This document shows, piece by piece, positions 37,681-64,000 of a stretch of 64,000 nt of DNA. This DNA comes from Telmatactis stephensoni. Its lineage: Eukaryota; Cnidaria; Anthozoa; Actiniaria; Isophelliidae. The notes beneath the pieces were generated by a model. It was not told the origin of the DNA and did no database searches. It saw only the letters and a list, made by a program, of their open reading frames with translations. Location of the stretch: the NCBI GenBank assembly GCA_029948255.1, contig JALIZF010001815.1:124001-188000 (forward strand). Direction: 5' to 3'. Position 1 is the stretch's first letter. Each line of letters starts with the position of its first letter. Made by a program: the position numbers and the translations under genes.

Positions 37681-40600
37681 TTTCTTTTCTTTTTTTTTTC
37701 TTTTTCAAAACAATAAAATATAAACTTATATCTATATAAAATGAATAAAAAGGAAGAGAAAGAAAGTTAAAGAAAGAAGAAAATAATGTAAGAAATAATG
37801 AAAATAGGAGAATCATATGACAATTAACAGAACTAGTGATAAAATTAAAAGAATAGAAAAATTAAAATCAAAATTTAAAAATTGGTAATTAAGCTTCTGA
37901 AGAACCAGGTTCGTGTTGATATAAAATTGTCAACAGCGTACATTAAGTTAAGGAAGGCTCCAAAACAAAAACTGCCAAAAGTCTATATTTTAGAAGTACG
38001 ACGGCGGAAAAGTTTCAGGTTGAATGCGACTGTAGTTTCTTGAAGAAAGTAATTTGTCATCCTTTCTTTGTGAATTTATTTTTCTCCCAGATCGCAAAAG
38101 TAATTAACGTCTTTACTTGATTGCGTAAATGTATCCTATATGTGGATTCTGTAGATTGTTTAACAGCTTTTGTTCATCTTTGTCAGTGACTTCGTATATA
38201 GTACTACTAATGGTCCCTATAGCCTGTGAACAGGCTCTTGGGAGGGGAGGGTACATGCTAGTAGGTGTAGGGGAGGGGAGGGTACGTGCTAGTGGGTGCA
38301 GGGGAGGGGAGGGTACGTGCTAGTAGGTGTAGAGACTGGAGTATTACTGTGTTCAGTGACAATGGCATTAAAGTCAAATTTTTATAGCAGAAAGAAAAAT
38401 ATGTTGACGTCCGCTTTGCTGTCTACACTAATACTAATCCTAACCCTGATCCACAGTTTTCAAGGGATCTCAACAAATTAGAGCGTTCTGAATTGAAAGA
38501 CGCTATATTATGATGACAAAATGAAATGAATGATGATGATAATCTATGATAAGCTACCAATGCTGATGGTGATGATAATCATGAAAATGTATATTATTAT
38601 GCATTGCAGGGGCAGGGTGATACGTGCCATCCCTGGAAATAAGGCACAGCTGAGGTTTTTGGTACAACTGAGCAACAATGACGTAAGTATCAACACTATT
38701 TGTCTCATGCAATCACTTCACAAATGATCAATGACTTTCATCCCGCTTCCAAGTCATTTATTCTTTCCTTCATTCATCCATTCTTTTGCTAGTCCATTTA
38801 TCCGCCATCAATTCCTTCTTCCCTTCCTTCTGTTACGGTGAAACCTAAGATATTTAGCTAGTTTGATAGTTAGTGACGTCACAATCGATGATTGCCATTT
38901 ACGCACGTTTTCCTCGCCGAAGTAACATCTCACAAGAGCCATCGGGTAAATATCGATATTATCGTTGATACACAATGTATTTCTATTGTAACATACAGCT
39001 CATAATGTGTAACATCATGTATTAGGTTTCGAAAGACTAACGGACTGACAGATTAACGAACTAGTGAACCGACTGATGACAGACCAATAAAGTCCTTTGA
39101 AAACGCTGGCTAGCTTGTTTGATCGGTCGAGGAAACATTCGAAACCCGTTCTCATATGATGGCCGAAGAAGCCAAGACTGTTCGTCGAACTGCCCAATGC
39201 AGATTCACAAGGAAGAGAAACGAATTGCTAAAATCAATAGCTAACAAAAGCACTAGAGAACTTGTGGAAGCGAATTACGCAGACACTGCGCCTTATACGC
39301 TACGCTCCTGCCTCGGTAAAGAACCCCTGGCCCAAGTGAAAAGCGTAGACGACGACATTCTAGAAATGTGGGAAAGGTTGGACGAGAAATACGGAGACCC
39401 AGCTAAAGTCGCTGATGCAATAATCAATGACATAAGACGATTCAAAATCATCAGAGAAGGCGAAGCCAAGCGATTTACTGAATTTGTCGGGATCGTTGAA
39501 GACGGATATCGAGATCTCAAGAGGCTCGGATTGGAAGCTGAGATAACCACGACGAGCTCTGTAAGCATCATCGAAAGGAAACTGCCAGCCGACGTGAGAA
39601 TTGAGTGGGCCAAACTACTCAGCGCTGATGGAAGTACAGTTGACAAAACGAACAAATTTTCGAGCCTCCTCAATTTCCTCAGTAGTATACAAATGAGAGT
39701 TCAACGCCACCTGAGCGCCGGTGCGCGCGGTACAAGGGGGGGGGTCACGCCTCCGAAAGAGGGGATGTCACGCCGGTGTCAGGGGAGTCACACAACAGCG
39801 ACCAGGGAGTCACGCGCCGGCGATCCGCTTGCAGGATTGAAAACTCCATTGCGCAGCAACCAAACAAATATTTCGGAGCAACTAACCAACGAAATTCTTT
39901 CCGGTGCGACCGAGGAACAAACGTAATACTGAGAACTCCGTTGCGCAGCAACCGAGCAACGTTTTCGGAATTTCAAACAAAAGAACGAATTGGTAGTGCC
40001 ACGCTTAAGGGTCTATTGTGTTCGATTCAGCCACCCGCAAAAGTATTGTTTACCATCAGGCCGATTCTTGCATAATTGGCTAAAGAATTTGGGCCGTTAT
40101 AAAATCTTCAAACGACCGAAAAACGTCCTAAAAACGGTACAAAAATTTCAGTTCAGCGAAGAGCTAGGCCACTCACTTTTGAGTCTTAGAGAGAACTACA
40201 AGGGAAGTCAAGATGAGCTGTCCTGAAGAGAGTTTCTTGTCTCAACAACACAAGGAATCAAATCGAATGCTTGCTCGTTATGTATGTCAGTCGTTAAAGC
40301 AAGAAAATGTAGGACTAGTAGATGAGGAAACGGTCTATCAAATCTTAATAAATGGAGCTGATGATGAAGATCAAACTTTGGACTATAGAGACACTGTTGG
40401 ATTTATAGAAGCCTATCGATATCTTCACAGACTGGCTTCGGACGTCTTGGAAATTGGATTATTAGAGAACAATATCATATGCGAAGTTCACAAAATACTG
40501 ATGGAACATCGTAGTCATTTATGTACCGTAGGGCAATACAGCGTGAAAGAAAGGTTGACAGAATTTGAAGGAAAAATACACTATTATACGAGATTTTGTG

Positions 40601-43600
40601 ACATTGACCAAACCATGCAGATGATAATCGATGAATTTAACCGCCGGCTGGATGAGATCCACCGTAAAAGTCTACGCACAACAGATAGATTAGATTCTTT
40701 GGAAAGTTTAATTCACTTAACGTCATGGCTCGTCTACAAATTTTTGCAAATACACCCCTTTGGCGATGGCAATGGAAGGATGGTCCGACTTTTGTACACT
40801 TACATCATGGAAGCCTTTGGCCTTCCCTTTCCAGCCCCTTTATTTTGGTATACTAAAGAAGAGCTGCAAACAAAGGACGGTTACAAAGAATACATTACAT
40901 GGTGTAAACTTTTATCAAATATCCGCCTAACCCTTGATTTTAAGGAATTAGAGCTTGATATGTTGCGTGCTTTAGGCGAATGTTGTAAGGAATGCAAACA
41001 GTTGTCGAAAAATAATAAAAAGTAGAAATATACGGAAGACTAACAGAATATATTTTGTTATACAATGACCAATCAGAAAAAGACTAGTACCTTTGTCATA
41101 GGAAGATAGACTCTCTTTTCAAAGCAGCTAAAGACAAATATTTTTGTAACATTTGTGTGCCGAGAACATATATGGTCTTCCTGATTTTGTCAATCTTTAC
41201 ACTTTTGTTTTTAAATGTTTGTTTGAAAAATAAAGACGAAAGTTTGAAGATCATTTTTTGTTGATTCTTATATAACATTCTTTGAAAGTATAACATAACT
41301 CTGGAGGTTCCTCTAGTAACCATGGAAACCATCCTTCGAGCTGATCCACAGGTATCCCATGTAGTGTAGATTTTAGTATTTTAGTTAGATTCTAGTATTC
41401 TGGTATAGATTCTAGTATTCTAACTAGATTCTAGCATTCTAATACCTTCTACCAGATTCTAGTATTCTAGCTAGATTCTAGTATTCTAACTAGATTTTAA
41501 TATAGTCTAGTGTAGATTCTACTAGATTCTAGCTAGATACTAGATTTTAATATAGTCTAGTGTAGATTCTACTAGATTCTAGCTAGATTCTAGATTCTAC
41601 TAGATATTAGATTCTACTAGATACTAGATTCTAGCTAGACACTAGATTCTACTAGACACTAGATTCTACTAGATTTTAATATAGTCTAGTGTAGATTCTA
41701 CTAGGTTCTACTAGATTTTAATATAGTCTAGTGTAGATTCTAGTATTCTGGTATAGATTCTAGTATTCTAGATTAGATTCTAGTAGGGGTGATAGCCTGA
41801 TAGCTGTCGATAGCCTGATAGCCTGCTATTTGATAGCCTGATAGCCTGCTATCGATAGCTATTAGTCTATTGATAGCCTGCTATCGATAGACTAATAAAT
41901 ATGCGAAGACGTAAAGACTGCAGGAGGAAGACGTAAAGACTGCGGGAGGAAGGTGTAAAGGCTGTCGGAGGTCCCCGCGGCGGCAAAGTTTGCCGCCCGC
42001 GGCGGCAAAGCCGCCCGAAGGGAACCTCCGACAGCTTTTACACCTTCCTCCCGCAGTCTTTATGTCTTCCTCCTGCAGTCTTTACGTCTTCGCATATTTA
42101 TTAGTCTATCGATAGCAGGCTATCAATAGACTAATAGCTATCGATAGCAGGCTATCAGGCTATCAAATAGCAGGCTATCAGGCTATCGACAGCTATCAGG
42201 CTATCACCCCTACTAGAATCTAATCTAGAATACTAGAATCTATACCAGAATACTAGAATCTACACTAGACTATATTAAAATCTAGTAGAACCTAGTAGAA
42301 TCTACACTAGACTATATTAAAATCTAGTAGAATCTAGTGTCTAGTAGAATCTAGTGTCTAGCTAGAATCTAGTATCTAGTAGAATCTAATATCTAGTAGA
42401 ATCTAGAATCTAGCTAGAATCTAGTAGAATCTACACTAGACTATATTAAAATCTAGTATCTAGCTAGAATCTAGTAGAATCTACACTAGACTATATTAAA
42501 ATCTAGTTAGAATACTAGAATCTAGCTAGAATACTAGAATCTGGTAGAAGGTATTAGAATGCTAGAATCTAGTTAGAATACTAGAATCTATACCAGAATA
42601 CTAGAATCTAACTAAAATACTAAAATCTACACTACATGGGATACCTGTGGATCAGCTCGAAGGATGGTTTCCATGGTTACTAGAGGAACCTCCAGAGTTA
42701 TGTTATACTTTCAAAGAATGTTATATAAGAATCAACAAAAAATGATCTTCAAACTTTCGTCTTTATTTTTCAAACAAACATTTAAAAACAAAAGTGTAAA
42801 GATTGACAAAATCAGGAAGACCATATATGTTCTCGGCACACAAATGTTACAAAAATATTTGTCTTTAGCTGCTTTGAAAAGAGAGTCTATCTTCCTATGA
42901 CAAAGGTACTAGTCTTTTTCTGATTGGTCATTGTATAACAAAATATATTCTGTTAGTCTTCCGTATATTTCTACTTTTTATTATTTTTCGACAACTGTTT
43001 GCATTCCTTACAACATTCGCCTAAAGCACGCAACATATCAAGCTCTAATTCCTTAAAATCAAGGGTTAGGCGGATATTTGATAAAAGTTTACACCATGTA
43101 ATGTATTCTTTGTAACCGTCCTTTGTTTGCAGCTCTTCTTTAGTATACCAAAATAAAGGGGCTGGAAAGGGAAGGCCAAAGGCTTCCATGATGTAAGTGT
43201 ACAAAAGTCGGACCATCCTTCCATTGCCATCGCCAAAGGGGTGTATTTGCAAAAATTTGTAGACGAGCCATGACGTTAAGTGAATTAAACTTTCCAAAGA
43301 ATCTAATCTATCTGTTGTGCGTAGACTTTTACGGTGGATCTCATCCAGCCGGCGGTTAAATTCATCGATTATCATCTGCATGGTTTGGTCAATGTCACAA
43401 AATCTCGTATAATAGTGTATTTTTCCTTCAAATTCTGTCAACCTTTCTTTCACGCTGTATTGCCCTACGGTACATAAATGACTACGATGTTCCATCAGTA
43501 TTTTGTGAACTTCGCATATGATATTGTTCTCTAATAATCCAATTTCCAAGACGTCCGAAGCCAGTCTGTGAAGATATCGATAGGCTTCTATAAATCCAAC

Positions 43601-46600
43601 AGTGTCTCTATAGTCCAAAGTTTGATCTTCATCATCAGCTCCATTTATTAAGATTTGATAGACCGTTTCCTCATCTACTAGTCCTACATTTTCTTGCTTT
43701 AACGACTGACATACATAACGAGCAAGCATTCGATTTGATTCCTTGTGTTGTTGAGACAAGAAACTCTCTTCAGGACAGCTCATCTTGACTTCCCTTGTAG
43801 TTCTCTCTAAGACTCAAAAGTGAGTGGCCTAGCTCTTCGCTGAACTGAAATTTTTGTACCGTTTTTAGGACGTTTTTCGGTCGTTTGAAGATTTTATAAC
43901 GGCCCAAATTCTTTAGCCAATTATGCAAGAATCGGCCTGATGGTAAACAATACTTTTGCGGGTGGCTGAATCGAACACAATAGACCCTTAAGCGTGGCAC
44001 TACCAATTCGTTCTTTTGTTTGAAATTCCGAAAACGTTGCTCGGTTGCTGCGCAACGGAGTTCTCAGTATTACGTTTGTTCCTCGGTCGCACCGGAAAGA
44101 ATTTCGTTGGTTAGTTGCTCCGAAATATTTGTTTGGTTGCTGCGCAATGGAGTTTTCAATCCTGCAAGCGGATCGCCGGCGCGTGACTCCCTGGTCGCTG
44201 TTGTGTGACTCCCCTGACACCGGCGTGACATCCCCTCTTTCGGAGGCGTGACCCCCCCCCCCCCCCCTTGTACCGCGCGCACCGGCGCTCAGGTGGCGTT
44301 GAACTCTCATTTGTATACTACTTTCCTCCTTACTCAAAAACGCGCAATCGAGTACGACGCATCAGAACTACGCGCACCTGGCGGTTCTGCTTCAGCGAAA
44401 GGAGTAGCTCACTACGTTATGACGAACGAACGTCGCGAAAACCCAAAACCAAGATCCGGCAAGTGTATATTCCATGACAACGCCGAGCACGCAACAAGCG
44501 AATGCAGACTCTACCTATCCAAATCGATACAGGAGAAAATGGAAATGCTGAAAGAAAAGGGAGCATGCTTTTCCTGTCTAAAATATGGTCATCGATCGCG
44601 GGACTGCCGAAGGAAAAAGGAATGCGGAATCAATGAATGTAAAAGGAAACACCACATAACTCTGCACGAAGACAAACCCACAGAAACCGAAACTCCGAAT
44701 TTATCAGCCTCGACTAATGCGTGCACTGACAAATTTAGCGAGAATTCTTTACTTCCTTTACTTAGTTCCTTCCTTCCCTTCCTTCCTTCCATCTTTCCTT
44801 GCTTGCTTGCTTGCTCCCTTCCTTCCTTTACCCATTCGATCGTTCATTTATTCATCAATTCGTTCGTTCTTTCGCTTGTACTCTTTTTCTTATTCAATAT
44901 CCTTAATTCCCTTTGGAGTAGTATTATACTCTATAGATATAACTGCATTGTGTACAGTACTAAGGCCACATAATTAATGTATTTCCAGGACCTTGACCTT
45001 GACTTCTGGACTCACCCATCACATGTTTCCGGTCCTGTTGACATCCGAGTCAACGCTGCAATGTACCCCAAGCTTGCCAAACTGCTTAGTGCTAATGGAA
45101 TAGTGTTCACTATTCTTATCCCTGATGTAGACGAACTGCAAGCCAGACAAAACCCACCAGACTCTGGAAGAAGCTCAGGATTTAATTACGCGCGCTACAA
45201 CACTTTAGACCAGGTAATTATTTGATATGGAATGATATGGTAAATGTATGGATCGGATCGATGGCGGGGACGGAAAATATGCTGGCCGTGTTGTTGAGAG
45301 TTGGTCGTTAATTTAGAGAGGTTTCCTTATAGAGCAAATGAATGGATTGGATTGTTTGATGTGCGCGCGCGGACGAAAAAAGCTGGCCGTAGTGGAGAGC
45401 TGTTAGTCCAGAACTGGACCCACTTTATCTTCGCGCGCGCGGCCAAAATTTAAAATTGGAGCGAGCGATGTAACGCTAACGGACTCGATAAAGGGGGTCC
45501 AGGGAAATTTGCCTGCGCATGCGTCAGTTCACATCCCGTTTTCGGGATGTGAGTATTGAGCAATGATTGACACACCCTCTTGGTTTACTTTTCGCGCCAA
45601 ATAAAAATGGCAGCTGTCTGCGATTCGTCGCGTGAAGAAATGTTCGGAAAATTTCGTAATGATTACTCAGATTCTTTTATCGAAGCGGCTTGTCAATCGC
45701 AGGAGAAGTGTCACCTAAACTTTGTTCTGAAGCCAGAGCAAATGCAAGTTTTGCATACTTTTCTCAAAGATAAATTACTTTTGACTTCCGTAACAAGTCT
45801 TGACAGGAGTGGTCTGACAGTGGTATATCACAAAAACCTACTGAAAATCAATTCAAAATTGAGTAGCAAATATAAAACAACTTTTCAGATAATATCCGTG
45901 ATAAAATGACCGAAAAGAATGACATACTTTGATAAAAAATAGCCGCTAAGTTGAATTACAGCTACACGACTATTGCGAAAAGTAAACTGAACTGGAATCT
46001 GTTGGTCTAAACTACCAGTAGATAAAATAACTACACAATAATCACGAAAAAAAGTAAAAAGAAATCATCCTAAGTAAAAAAAAATCATGTCTGATGAGTA
46101 AAATCGGTAATTTCGTTTTCGTTTTTGGCTTCAATGAGTTCAAAGTCACAGCAAAAGTGAATTTTCAGCAAAGCAAACAAATTGTCCTTTATGAAGACAA
46201 AAACGGTATTGTTTAAACAAAGATGAAACAAATAACTTTTTAAATAAAATAAACAGGGAATACACAAGTGCAGACTACCCTTTTTAATACCTTTCAATAA
46301 CTTTTCAGCATCATTCCTTTAGGTTGAAGCTATATTTTGACAAACTTTCACTTTCACATGCCGGTCAGCTCGATCGTTTTTCGCCAGTTTTGAAAAAACA
46401 GCAAAAAGAAATCTTCAAAAGCATCAAATGACCCGTACTTCTTTCATTTTGTGAGCTTTTGGACTTGATTCTATAATTAAATCACCTCTTTTAAGCGTGA
46501 GAAAGCTTCCCGAGTCTGGCCGCCATTTCCTTTTTGGCTTTCTTCTTGCAAAGAAAGAAAAGTTGCCATGGAAACTGTAATTCCTACAACTTTGCAGGTA

Positions 46601-58477: not shown

Positions 58478-61400
58478 ATGAAGACACTCTGCTTATTGTT
58501 ACTTCTCGCCCTTGGGGCGCATGGCGGCCCTTTGTAAGTACATACTTATACCTGACCTGCCTTCAATTTAATCTAGACTTTCATTGTATGATTGCTATAA
58601 TATCCAACAAAGAGTTCAACTTCAGTGTGATTTGTTAGGCCGGATCGGCTGGTAACGCAAAAATATCAGTCAGGGTGTTCGTAATCTTGTTCAATTTGGA
58701 GAATCAAAAAGGCGATAACGTTTAGCATTTAAAAAGTTTTTCAAAAATATTACGCGTTCAAAAGGTTTTTACAAACATTTTGCACTTAAAAGGGTTTTCA
58801 AAAGTATTTAGCATTTAAAAGGTTTTACAAAAATATTTTGCATTCGATAGGCTTTTTAAAAAAAACATTTAGCATTCAAAAGGCTTTTCGAAAACATTTA
58901 GCATTCAAAAGGCTTTACGAAAACGTTTATATTAGCACTGAAGAGGTTTGTCGGATTTCAAGAAAGAATTTTTCTTGTGTTGATGTCGTCTAAGTTGAAT
59001 CTTTACCAATTTCATGCGGTTTACAGTATCATTGTACAAAGTACTCGACTGCGGAATGTTTCTGACCAATGCTGTCAACAATTTTTCACTCAAATTGGAA
59101 ATTATGATAGCAAAAACAAAACAAACGAAAGCAAAAACTTTGAAAAATTGAAACAAAAGAAAAACAAACACAAATAATTTATAACATACAAAAGCAAAGA
59201 CAATCACTGCAAAATAATACAAAACAAAGCAAAGCGAAAAGAAAAACAGCTGAAATAATACTAAGAAGATATATTGTTGGTGTGTGCGTTATAATAGACT
59301 TCCGGTCGATTTAAAATGAAATCTCTTTAAATAACCTCTGCATATATAAGTATCAGTTTTAAAAAAGGCTCCACTGTGCTAGAAAGCTATCAATTAACAC
59401 AACATGCAGCTCTTGGGCTGATCATGAACATCACAGCCTGCGTCCCATCCGTTAAAAAACTCTCGCCTAGTCGGTCTCCGTAACAGTGACGAACCGCGTG
59501 TTTTCGACCCCTAACAATCTTTCTGGTTTTGAAAAGAAGGTAGCTTATGATTGGCTACATATCGTGAAGGTCATTCTAACGCCGTTTCTTATTGGATGTT
59601 CTCTCGTGACGTTCTCAGCATGACGTCAGCGACTGTTTCTTTAGAAATGCCCAATGGCAAGAAAAGTGTCTTAGTCAATCACAAGTTAAGCTTCTTTTGA
59701 AACTCAGAAAGATGTTAGACACGATTCAGTTGACGCAGCTAGAACATGCATCATGGTTACAGATTTATAAGTATTAAAACTTTATCATAATTTTCTAATT
59801 TGTTAGATTTATAACTATTTTGTAAATTAATGAAGTAGCTCATAAATCTACTGAATTGCACTGTATGATAATTATAATGATTTTACCGTGTTTTCACTGA
59901 TTCCAGAGGTAGGGTAATACGTGTTACACCATCCAATGAGGGACAGTTGAACTTCCTAAGAACCCTGAGTGATAATGACGTAAGTATTGACGTCAGTATT
60001 GACGTCACTTTTCATTTCAAACAACCTGATAATTGAGTCCTTTTTGTTAAGATCAGAGTGACATAACCCATAGGCAGTCTACATTAGCTTATATTAATTG
60101 AAGACGTGCTAGAAATCATTCCAGTAGACCTTTTTGCTTTACCGCTATTTTCGAAATTTGTGAGTGGAATGTGAATTTCTTTGTTTAAATTATCACGTAC
60201 GTGTATCATGTAAGTTTGTTTCTTTGTCTGCCAATCAACAATAGATCGATGTGGGTTTGATTTTGCAGCTTCAACAAAAGAAAGTTACATTCCGCACAAA
60301 CTTTCTTGTCACCTATTGTTTTATGGCACACGATGTTCGAAAATAGTGGTAAAGCAAAAAGATCGTTAGTTAGAAAACAAGGCAGCATTTTAGGTTCAAT
60401 TATAGAAGAACGCAGGTATTGTAAGAATGGAGACAAGTGTTGATGCGGCTGCCGGCTTCTTCTTCTTCTTCTTTTTCTTCTTCTTCTTTCTTTTCTTTTT
60501 TTTCCTCCTTTTCTTTTCTTTTATTAAAGCTATAGCTTCTGCCAAGTCTAAATGACTATTTTGAAAATGTGCACGCGTAGTTTGTGCGTTATCATGTGTG
60601 TCACACGCACCTTCTTGGAGCGTGCCATCTCGTACCATCAGGCCATAGTGATTTCGTCTATATTAATAAACCCTGTACTATTAACCTACTATTTCATGGG
60701 TAAATGATAATCTATGCCATTCACTGCCAATACTCTCAGATCTCCAAAACCTAATTAATTCACCAGGACATGCAGACCCACCCATTTGGTACGATATTCT
60801 AATCAGATCAGAGTGACATCATCGTGCATGCAAATAGGGTCTATTTAGCCTAGTATGTCATTCACTGACAATACCTTTTCTCTAGGACCTCGAACTGGAC
60901 TTCTGGACCCATCCATCTAATGTTGGACAATCAGTCGACATCCGAGTCACCAATGCTCAGTACCCTAAAGTGGCTAAGCTCCTTCATGCTCAGGGAATCA
61001 GGTTCATGATTCTCATTCCTGATGTAGACGATCTACAATCCAGACAAAACCCACCAGACTCTGGATTAAGAAATGGAGGTTTTGGTTACACTAAGTACAA
61101 CACATTGAATGATGTGAGTATATTTTATTGTACAACGCTATAGATACTAGTGAAAAACGTCTGCGCATGCGTGCATATTACGATGTTTTCTTAAGAAATT
61201 TGTGAGTTTTAGCTTGAGATGAAATGCTCGTAAAATAAAATAAAATAAATTAAAAAATTTAAAATTTCTGTTGTACACTTTTGTAAGACAAAGATATTGC
61301 ATCAGTGAAAACATTATGTGAGTACTGGCTCTAAGTTTCAAAAATTGACCTTAAGTTTTGACATGTTGTGAAAACCATAAAAATTAAAAAAAAATCGGAA

Positions 61401-63212: not shown

Positions 63213-64000
63213 ACAGGTTAGTAAGGTAGGTGGAAATAGGTAGGTAGGAATCGGTAGGTAGGTAGGTAGGTGGGTAGGTGGGTAGGTGGGTAGGTGGGTA
63301 GGTGGGTAGGTAGGTAGGTGGGTAGGTGGGTGGGTAGGTGGGTAGGTGGGTAGGTGGGTAGGTGGGTAGGTGGGTAGGGTGGGTAGGTGGGTAGGTGGGT
63401 AGGTGGGTAGGTGGGTAGGTGGGTAGGTGGTAGGCTGGGTAGTAGGTAGGTAGGTAGGTGGGTGAAGTGGGGTGAGGTGGGGTAGTGGGGTATGGTGGGT
63501 AAGGTTGGGTGAGGTGTAGGTGGTGGTAGGTAGGTAGGTAGGTGGGTAGGTGGGTAGGTGGGTAGGTAGGTAGGTAGGTAGGTAGGTAGGTAGGTAGGTA
63601 GGTAGGTAGGTAGGTAGGTAGGGTAGGTAGGTAGGTAGGTAGGTAGGTAGGTAGGTAGGTAGGTAGGTAGGTAGGTAGGTAGGTAGGTAGGTAGGTAGGT
63701 AGGTAGGTAGGTAGGTAGGTAGGTAGGTAGGTAGGTAGGTAGGTAGGTAGGTAGGTAGGTAGGTAGGTAGGTAGGTAGGTAGGTAGGTAGGTAGGTAGGT
63801 AGGTAGGTAGGTAGGTAGGTAGGTAGGTAGGTAGGTAGGTAGGTAGGTAGGTAGGTAGGTAGGTAGGTAGGTAGGTAGGTAGGTAGGTAGGTAGGTAGGT
63901 AGGTAGGTAGGTAGGTAGGTAGGTAGGTAGGTAGGTAGGTAGGTAGGTAGGTAGGTAGGTAGGTAGGTAGGTAGGTAGGTAGGTAGGTAGGTAGGTAGGT
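63213..64000. repeat. (GGTA)n microsatellite to window edge
   Basis: The tract starts with mixed GGTAGGTG units and irregular GGTGGGGT interruptions, and from about 63560 becomes almost pure GGTA to the last base. At least ~790 bp lies in intron 6 of carboxypeptidase gene 2. The true length is unknown because it is cut by the window. Confidence 0.97.

Follow-up and report, generated by a model that had tools for sequence, protein, structure and literature searches.

Within a 64,000-nucleotide stretch of the genome of Telmatactis stephensoni (the window; positions 124,001 to 188,000 of contig JALIZF010001815.1, assembly GCA_029948255.1) lies a palindromic mobile element, each arm of which carries an intact gene for a Fic protein, and which belongs to a real, young, and multicopy family. 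Our best reading, to which we give a probability of roughly 0.7, is that the element is a non-autonomous satellite of the Maverick/Polinton type that carries Fic as its cargo and would be moved in trans by a Maverick-type integrase. Judged from sequence, assignment to this class is supported by the ends of the element, its target-site duplication, and a putative ATPase encoded by its longer relatives, and the combination of a palindromic satellite with ends of the Maverick type and a Fic cargo present twice is new as far as our literature search reaches.

Architecture of the palindrome and its insertion site

An earlier, sequence-only reading of the window had described a near-perfect palindrome of 4.6 kb with exact ends and an intact 270-residue Fic frame facing inward on each arm, and self-comparison of the window bears this out: the inverted arms are perfect over 2241 nt (39736-41976 and 42020-44260, 100% identity) and again over the terminal 64 nt (39681-39744 and 44259-44322, 100%), and the two inward-facing Fic genes, one per arm, are identical in DNA (Table 1). 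A chance match is ruled out for a perfect inverted repeat of 2.2 kb. The arm differences that the same reading had noticed, namely a G-run, whose right-hand copy has 7 additional bases, and two substitutions close to the centre, are those found outside the centre of approximately 43 nt.

The interrupted gag gene is one that we take to be of BEL/Pao origin, DUF1759 presumably being typical of such elements, and its frame is open when the flanks are joined with a single TTCCTC and the palindrome is removed. No Rfam match was found in the window. The only open reading frames (ORFs) of at least 120 residues lying wholly inside the element are the Fic frames, which match Fic alone, so that the element is at most a derivative of a Maverick.

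Table 1. Features of the palindromic element and of its insertion site (window coordinates)
Feature	Position	Strand	Remarks
Whole palindromic element	39681..44322		4642 bp; ends exactly AGTAGTATAC / GTATACTACT
Left arm	39681..41976	+	Inverted-repeat self-comparison
Right arm	42020..44322	-	Inverted copy with G-run longer by 7 bases; inverted-repeat self-comparison
(AGT)2 end motif	39681..39686	+	Mirror (ACT)2 at 44317-44322
Asymmetric GC-rich centre	41977..42019		Between the arms
Fic gene, 270 residues	40213..41025	+	HPFGDGNGRMVR at residues 181-192
Second Fic gene	42971..43783	-	DNA identical to first copy
TATAAA upstream of Fic	40098..40103	+	Mirror 43893-43898; consensus match only
AATAAA downstream of Fic	41229..41234	+	Mirror 42762-42767; consensus match only
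TAGATTCTAGTATTCT-type subrepeats	41367..41790	+	Mirrored in right arm; repeat families D1-D6
GATAGCCTG-type subrepeats	41799..41884	+	Repeat family D7
22-nt direct repeats, n=3	41905..41970	+	Adjoining the centre; repeat family D12
Left target-site duplication	39675..39680		TTCCTC, perfect 6 bp
Right target-site duplication	44323..44328		TTCCTC, perfect 6 bp
Target: 5' part of BEL/Pao gag	39156..39680	+	DUF1759 (E 8e-9, Pfam)
Target: rest of gag frame	44329..44690	+	Zinc-knuckle part; knuckle read by eye

A multicopy family and its probable Maverick-type relatives

With one arm as the query, the search of the same assembly (483,535,264 bases in 1782 contigs) gave at least 157 matches (40 of 735 candidates scored), mostly arranged as inverted pairs, and 20 further listed copies (L151-L170) were read, the window being the 21st stretch. 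Both exact ends, (AGT)2//(ACT)2, are present in 14 of the 20, all with perfect 6-bp duplications, each of them different; with the window included, the duplication is perfect in 15 of 15 elements that have both ends. Two copies have one exact end within the stretch read (L163 and L170, the other end of L170 lying beyond it) and four have none (L155, L164, L167, and L168). All 15 both-ended elements have inverted arms, L162, L165, and L166 being interrupted or composite, and the elements span 4.3-6.3 kb, with the composite L165 reaching 8.2 kb. In the outer 550 bp no pair among the 21 stretches shares more than 150 bp, one 550-bp side of L170 still lying inside the element. The other copies that the sequence-only reading had called for, alike in their ends but with differing flanks and with duplications of 6 bp, are therefore present at 14 both-ended sites, and its remark that a transposase is absent also holds: no transposase gene was seen in the element, for which reason the family was probably moved in trans. 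Missed hairpin adapters can create palindromes, but the idea that this one is an assembly or library artefact has a negligible probability: 14 other sites have these ends together with proper duplications, the centre is common to many sites, and there are arm differences within one element. An exact 17-base match to the element end in IMG/VR (L171) was taken as chance, since it lies within an ORF and the ten listed ORFs of that stretch are all on one strand.

In vertebrate Mavericks, according to the part of the source available to us, 5'-(AGT)2//(ACT)2-3' is the end motif found most often, and intact elements have 6-bp duplications (PMC8097293); the palindrome has both features in common with Mavericks/Polintons, and it has relatives with a weakly assigned packaging-type ATPase. 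The lengths given in the same excerpt, 12.7-24.6 kb, exceed those of the palindromes, which also differ from Mavericks in carrying a Fic cargo, in consisting of their inverted repeats over the whole element, and in that no polymerase, integrase, or capsid gene was seen inside. An enzyme cargo in a Maverick-type element is likewise described, in the accessible portion of PMC10680173, for nematode Mavericks with wosp and krma, which carry protease or kinase genes, whereas here a palindromic satellite carries Fic.

The shape of the element suggests another comparison. Foldback transposons such as FB, TU, and Galileo are built of inverted repeats of great length that contain subrepeats, and they generally lack a transposase. 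The sequence-only reading had drawn this likeness, and the palindromes, with their long inverted arms, inner subrepeats, and many copies in none of which a transposase gene was seen, do resemble foldback Tetris elements in these respects (PMC4079207, in the extract consulted). The likeness is one of shape only: the ends and the 6-bp duplication match those of Mavericks/Polintons (PMC8097293, same excerpt), all 15 elements with both ends have duplications of 6 bp, as against 8-10 bp for the Mutator-assigned Tetris (PMC4079207, same extract), and each arm has an intact enzyme gene, so that a foldback (FB/TU, Mutator-type) transposon carrying a captured gene is a very improbable explanation.

A genome search with the 200-bp terminal inverted repeat (TIR) gave at least 40 matches (40 of 276 candidates scored) and revealed further TIR pairs, three of which, on contigs C33 (L173), C10 (L174), and C171 (L175), are longer and lack Fic. 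They and L154, a Fic palindrome of the long form, have repeats of approximately 900 bp in common (85-91% identity), and the three also encode an acidic, Cys-rich ORF without a Pfam family. L174 and L175 have matches to Pox_A32, an A32/FtsK-like ATPase, above the Pfam cut-off (E 1.6e-5 and 5.2e-5, respectively), and in L173 broken pieces of the ATPase were recognised by eye. Relatives with (AGT)2 ends are flanked by the duplications CTTATC (C171), GGGGTC (C539), TATATA (C10), and AACATT (C33), the ends on C10 and C33 being AGTAGTAGG and not AGTAGTATAC; no exact end was seen at C149 and C283. Flanks and duplications are the same in C1115 and C171, and in C175 and C539, so that C1115 and C175 are probably alleles of C171 and C539, with the assembly holding both alleles at some sites.

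Genome-wide there are at least 135 ATPase matches (135 of 527 candidates scored), six of them within TIR pairs of the 200-bp search. Many are open frames of approximately 500 residues with identical scores, and for this reason the ATPase family has probably spread recently. No relatives of the ATPase were found in IMG/VR, and comparison with PHROGs and the PDB gave weak matches only. DNA_pol_B_2 has 88 matches in the genome, with frames of up to 1484 residues.

Several of these results weigh against a Maverick derivation. The ATPase assignment is weak, the Pox_A32 match spanning only approximately 25 residues around the P-loop; on the shared contigs compared, PolB matches are separated from ATPase matches by at least 34 kb and from TIRs by at least 50 kb; comparison of the TIR, ATPase, and PolB matches yielded no helper element that combines these ends with a polymerase and a capsid; and several additional places found by the arm search show the arm in one orientation only. 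The numerous ATPase copies, six of them within TIR pairs of 5.4-10.6 kb with no PolB near, would also fit a separate compact superfamily, built from the ATPase and the Cys-rich gene and sharing with Mavericks only the end motif and the 6-bp duplication, of which the Fic palindromes would be satellites. We consider this improbable: Mavericks have the same end motif, the same length of duplication, and an ATPase of the packaging type, and the compact forms may be deleted Maverick derivatives. The sequence-only reading had proposed an undescribed family; a multicopy mobile family it is, but one that, in view of its ends, duplication, and ATPase relatives, is better regarded as derived from a virus-like class already described.

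L174 itself (C10:951300-960800) is a different palindrome-like element of 9.3 kb with inverted ATPase copies, its outer arms (2012 bp) being 99.65% and its inner arms (1909 bp) 91% identical, and palindromy may thus recur in the lineage. At C1311:1625-3789 two inverted DNA_pol_B_2 frames lie approximately 250 bp apart, possibly as another inverted dimer.

Shared centre and likeness of the arms

A 120-bp stretch across the window centre, searched by alignment in the 20 other copies, has full-length matches (94-100%) in nine of them (L151, L152, L157, L158, L159, L161, L162, L164, and L169) and is split into two pieces in a further six (L153, L154, L155, L156, L160, and L167), in L160 because of an insertion of approximately 690 bp at the palindrome centre (L160 2600-4200). 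Since this stretch is common to many copies, most of them appear to descend from one old junction.

The arms are homogenised within elements, as is shown in most of the divergent copies. Over the 1353 bp compared, the first arm of an element has its nearest counterpart in its own partner arm, and not in any foreign arm, in 12 of 18 elements, and five more are ties to printed precision, L165 among them. Over the terminal 400 bp, own ends are strictly closer in eight of 15 elements and tied in six; six elements are 11-30 changes away from every other while their own ends are only 0-5 apart, and in each of the 15 the left and right ends are of one and the same variant. The arms of a fixed palindrome that merely moved would predate the separation of the elements, and would hence differ more.

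The pattern is not uniform, and the exceptions count on the opposite side: the centre was not found in five copies (L163, L165, L166, L168, and L170), L153 is closer to a foreign arm than to its own second arm, L157 is closer by one change to a foreign end over the terminal 400 bp, and in the 3' flank the within-element mean of 5.1% (median 0) is greater than the between-element mean of 3.1%, although the former is raised by L165, which is unreliable because its arm is cut short.

How the arms are kept alike admits two explanations. Palindromes in animal genomes convert readily, and gene conversion by the host after insertion, which would yield the same arm pattern, is a possible but less likely alternative to equalisation during element replication; by itself it leaves the joint switch of both ends to a new variant unexplained, although whole-arm tracts could account for it. 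On the satellite reading, the palindrome would have arisen by inverted dimerisation of a single element end, comprising the TIR, Fic, and the subrepeats, with the halves joined at the GC-rich hairpin centre that many copies have in common, and a Maverick-type integrase would recognise the ends and insert the element in trans with a 6-bp duplication. Mavericks are thought to replicate as linear DNA by strand displacement, which would expose single strands. At such a stage each strand of the palindrome would fold into a 2.3-kb hairpin, in which mismatch repair may correct the differences between the arms, so that arms and ends stay alike while elements diverge; homogenisation during replication is plausible because each strand can fold in this way.

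The Fic cargo and its possible role

Both the Fic catalytic motif, HPFx[D/E]GN[G/K]R (PMC2686095, in the part available), and the Fic fold are present in the 270-residue protein, in which Pfam recognises the Fic domain only. In the structural model, the protein has a FICD-like fold with the active-site motif intact. By sequence, S27LKQEN32, which is N-terminal to the Fic core, fits the inhibitory motif (S/T)xxxE(G/N), and a helix is predicted at residues 8-30 in a model with a predicted local distance difference test (pLDDT) score of 74; in two close relatives the S/T of this inhibitory-type motif is replaced by C. From the modelled fold and the motifs, the protein is likely to be enzymatically active. 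It has the fold, the catalytic motif, and the N-terminal inhibitory-type motif in common with metazoan FICD/HYPE and class II Fic proteins, as far as these are covered in the portions of PMC8097203 and PMC3667792 at hand, but the identity is approximately 17%, and the gene is multicopy and mobile, whereas metazoans are mostly reported with a single functional fic gene.

Selection on the cargo does not speak for the reading: Fic variants among copies number 9 synonymous to 24 replacement, which does not differ from neutral (p 0.37), Fic is no more conserved among copies than the 3' flank, and by neither comparison was purifying selection on Fic among copies shown. No relatives of the Fic protein were found in phage and plasmid records, nor in IMG/VR with the single protein as the query. 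With the Fic alignment as the query, IMG/VR gave 50 remote Fic matches, and the best 80 of 285 matches in GTDB contigs are all remote bacterial or archaeal Fics; these remote matches were set aside as having no bearing on the palindrome. A solo Fic fragment (L172, C1016:97500-103500) stands beside ORFs with YqaJ/PHD and DDE_Tnp_4 domains, which we took to be unrelated.

The cargo of the satellite would be a self-inhibited nucleotidyl-transferase of Fic class II, expressed, probably, with TATA and poly(A) signals of its own, and it may modify a protein of the host or of a helper virus to the benefit of the element. A more specific proposal, which we offer tentatively and consider rather doubtful as a whole, is that a Maverick-like virus has a hairpin satellite: the satellite genome would be one arm copied twice and kept identical by self-annealing in each replication round, and the satellite would turn a self-inhibited Fic AMPylase on its host or helper in the manner of phage-satellite interference genes. 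With this family, the cargo of virus-like transposons in animals would come to include an AMPylase, and the Fic genes other than FICD that are scattered among invertebrates would have a suggested source. The family would also offer a natural system for testing how long palindromes stay identical and stable within the genome of an animal and, should the Fic protein act on the host or a helper, a counterpart at the Maverick level to the interference of phage satellites.

Elsewhere in the window, the stretches 44984-45168 and 60881-61065 are 77% similar, and the first resembles a carboxypeptidase exon by eye, which suggests tandem carboxypeptidase-like paralogues. From 63224 to 64000, the window end, there are repeats with many overlapping self-matches (82-90%). 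The window also holds a CTU2 gene, by which the host is probably an anthozoan: its nearest named sequences are anthozoan (Oculina 50%, Nematostella 47%), with three others at 59-65%.

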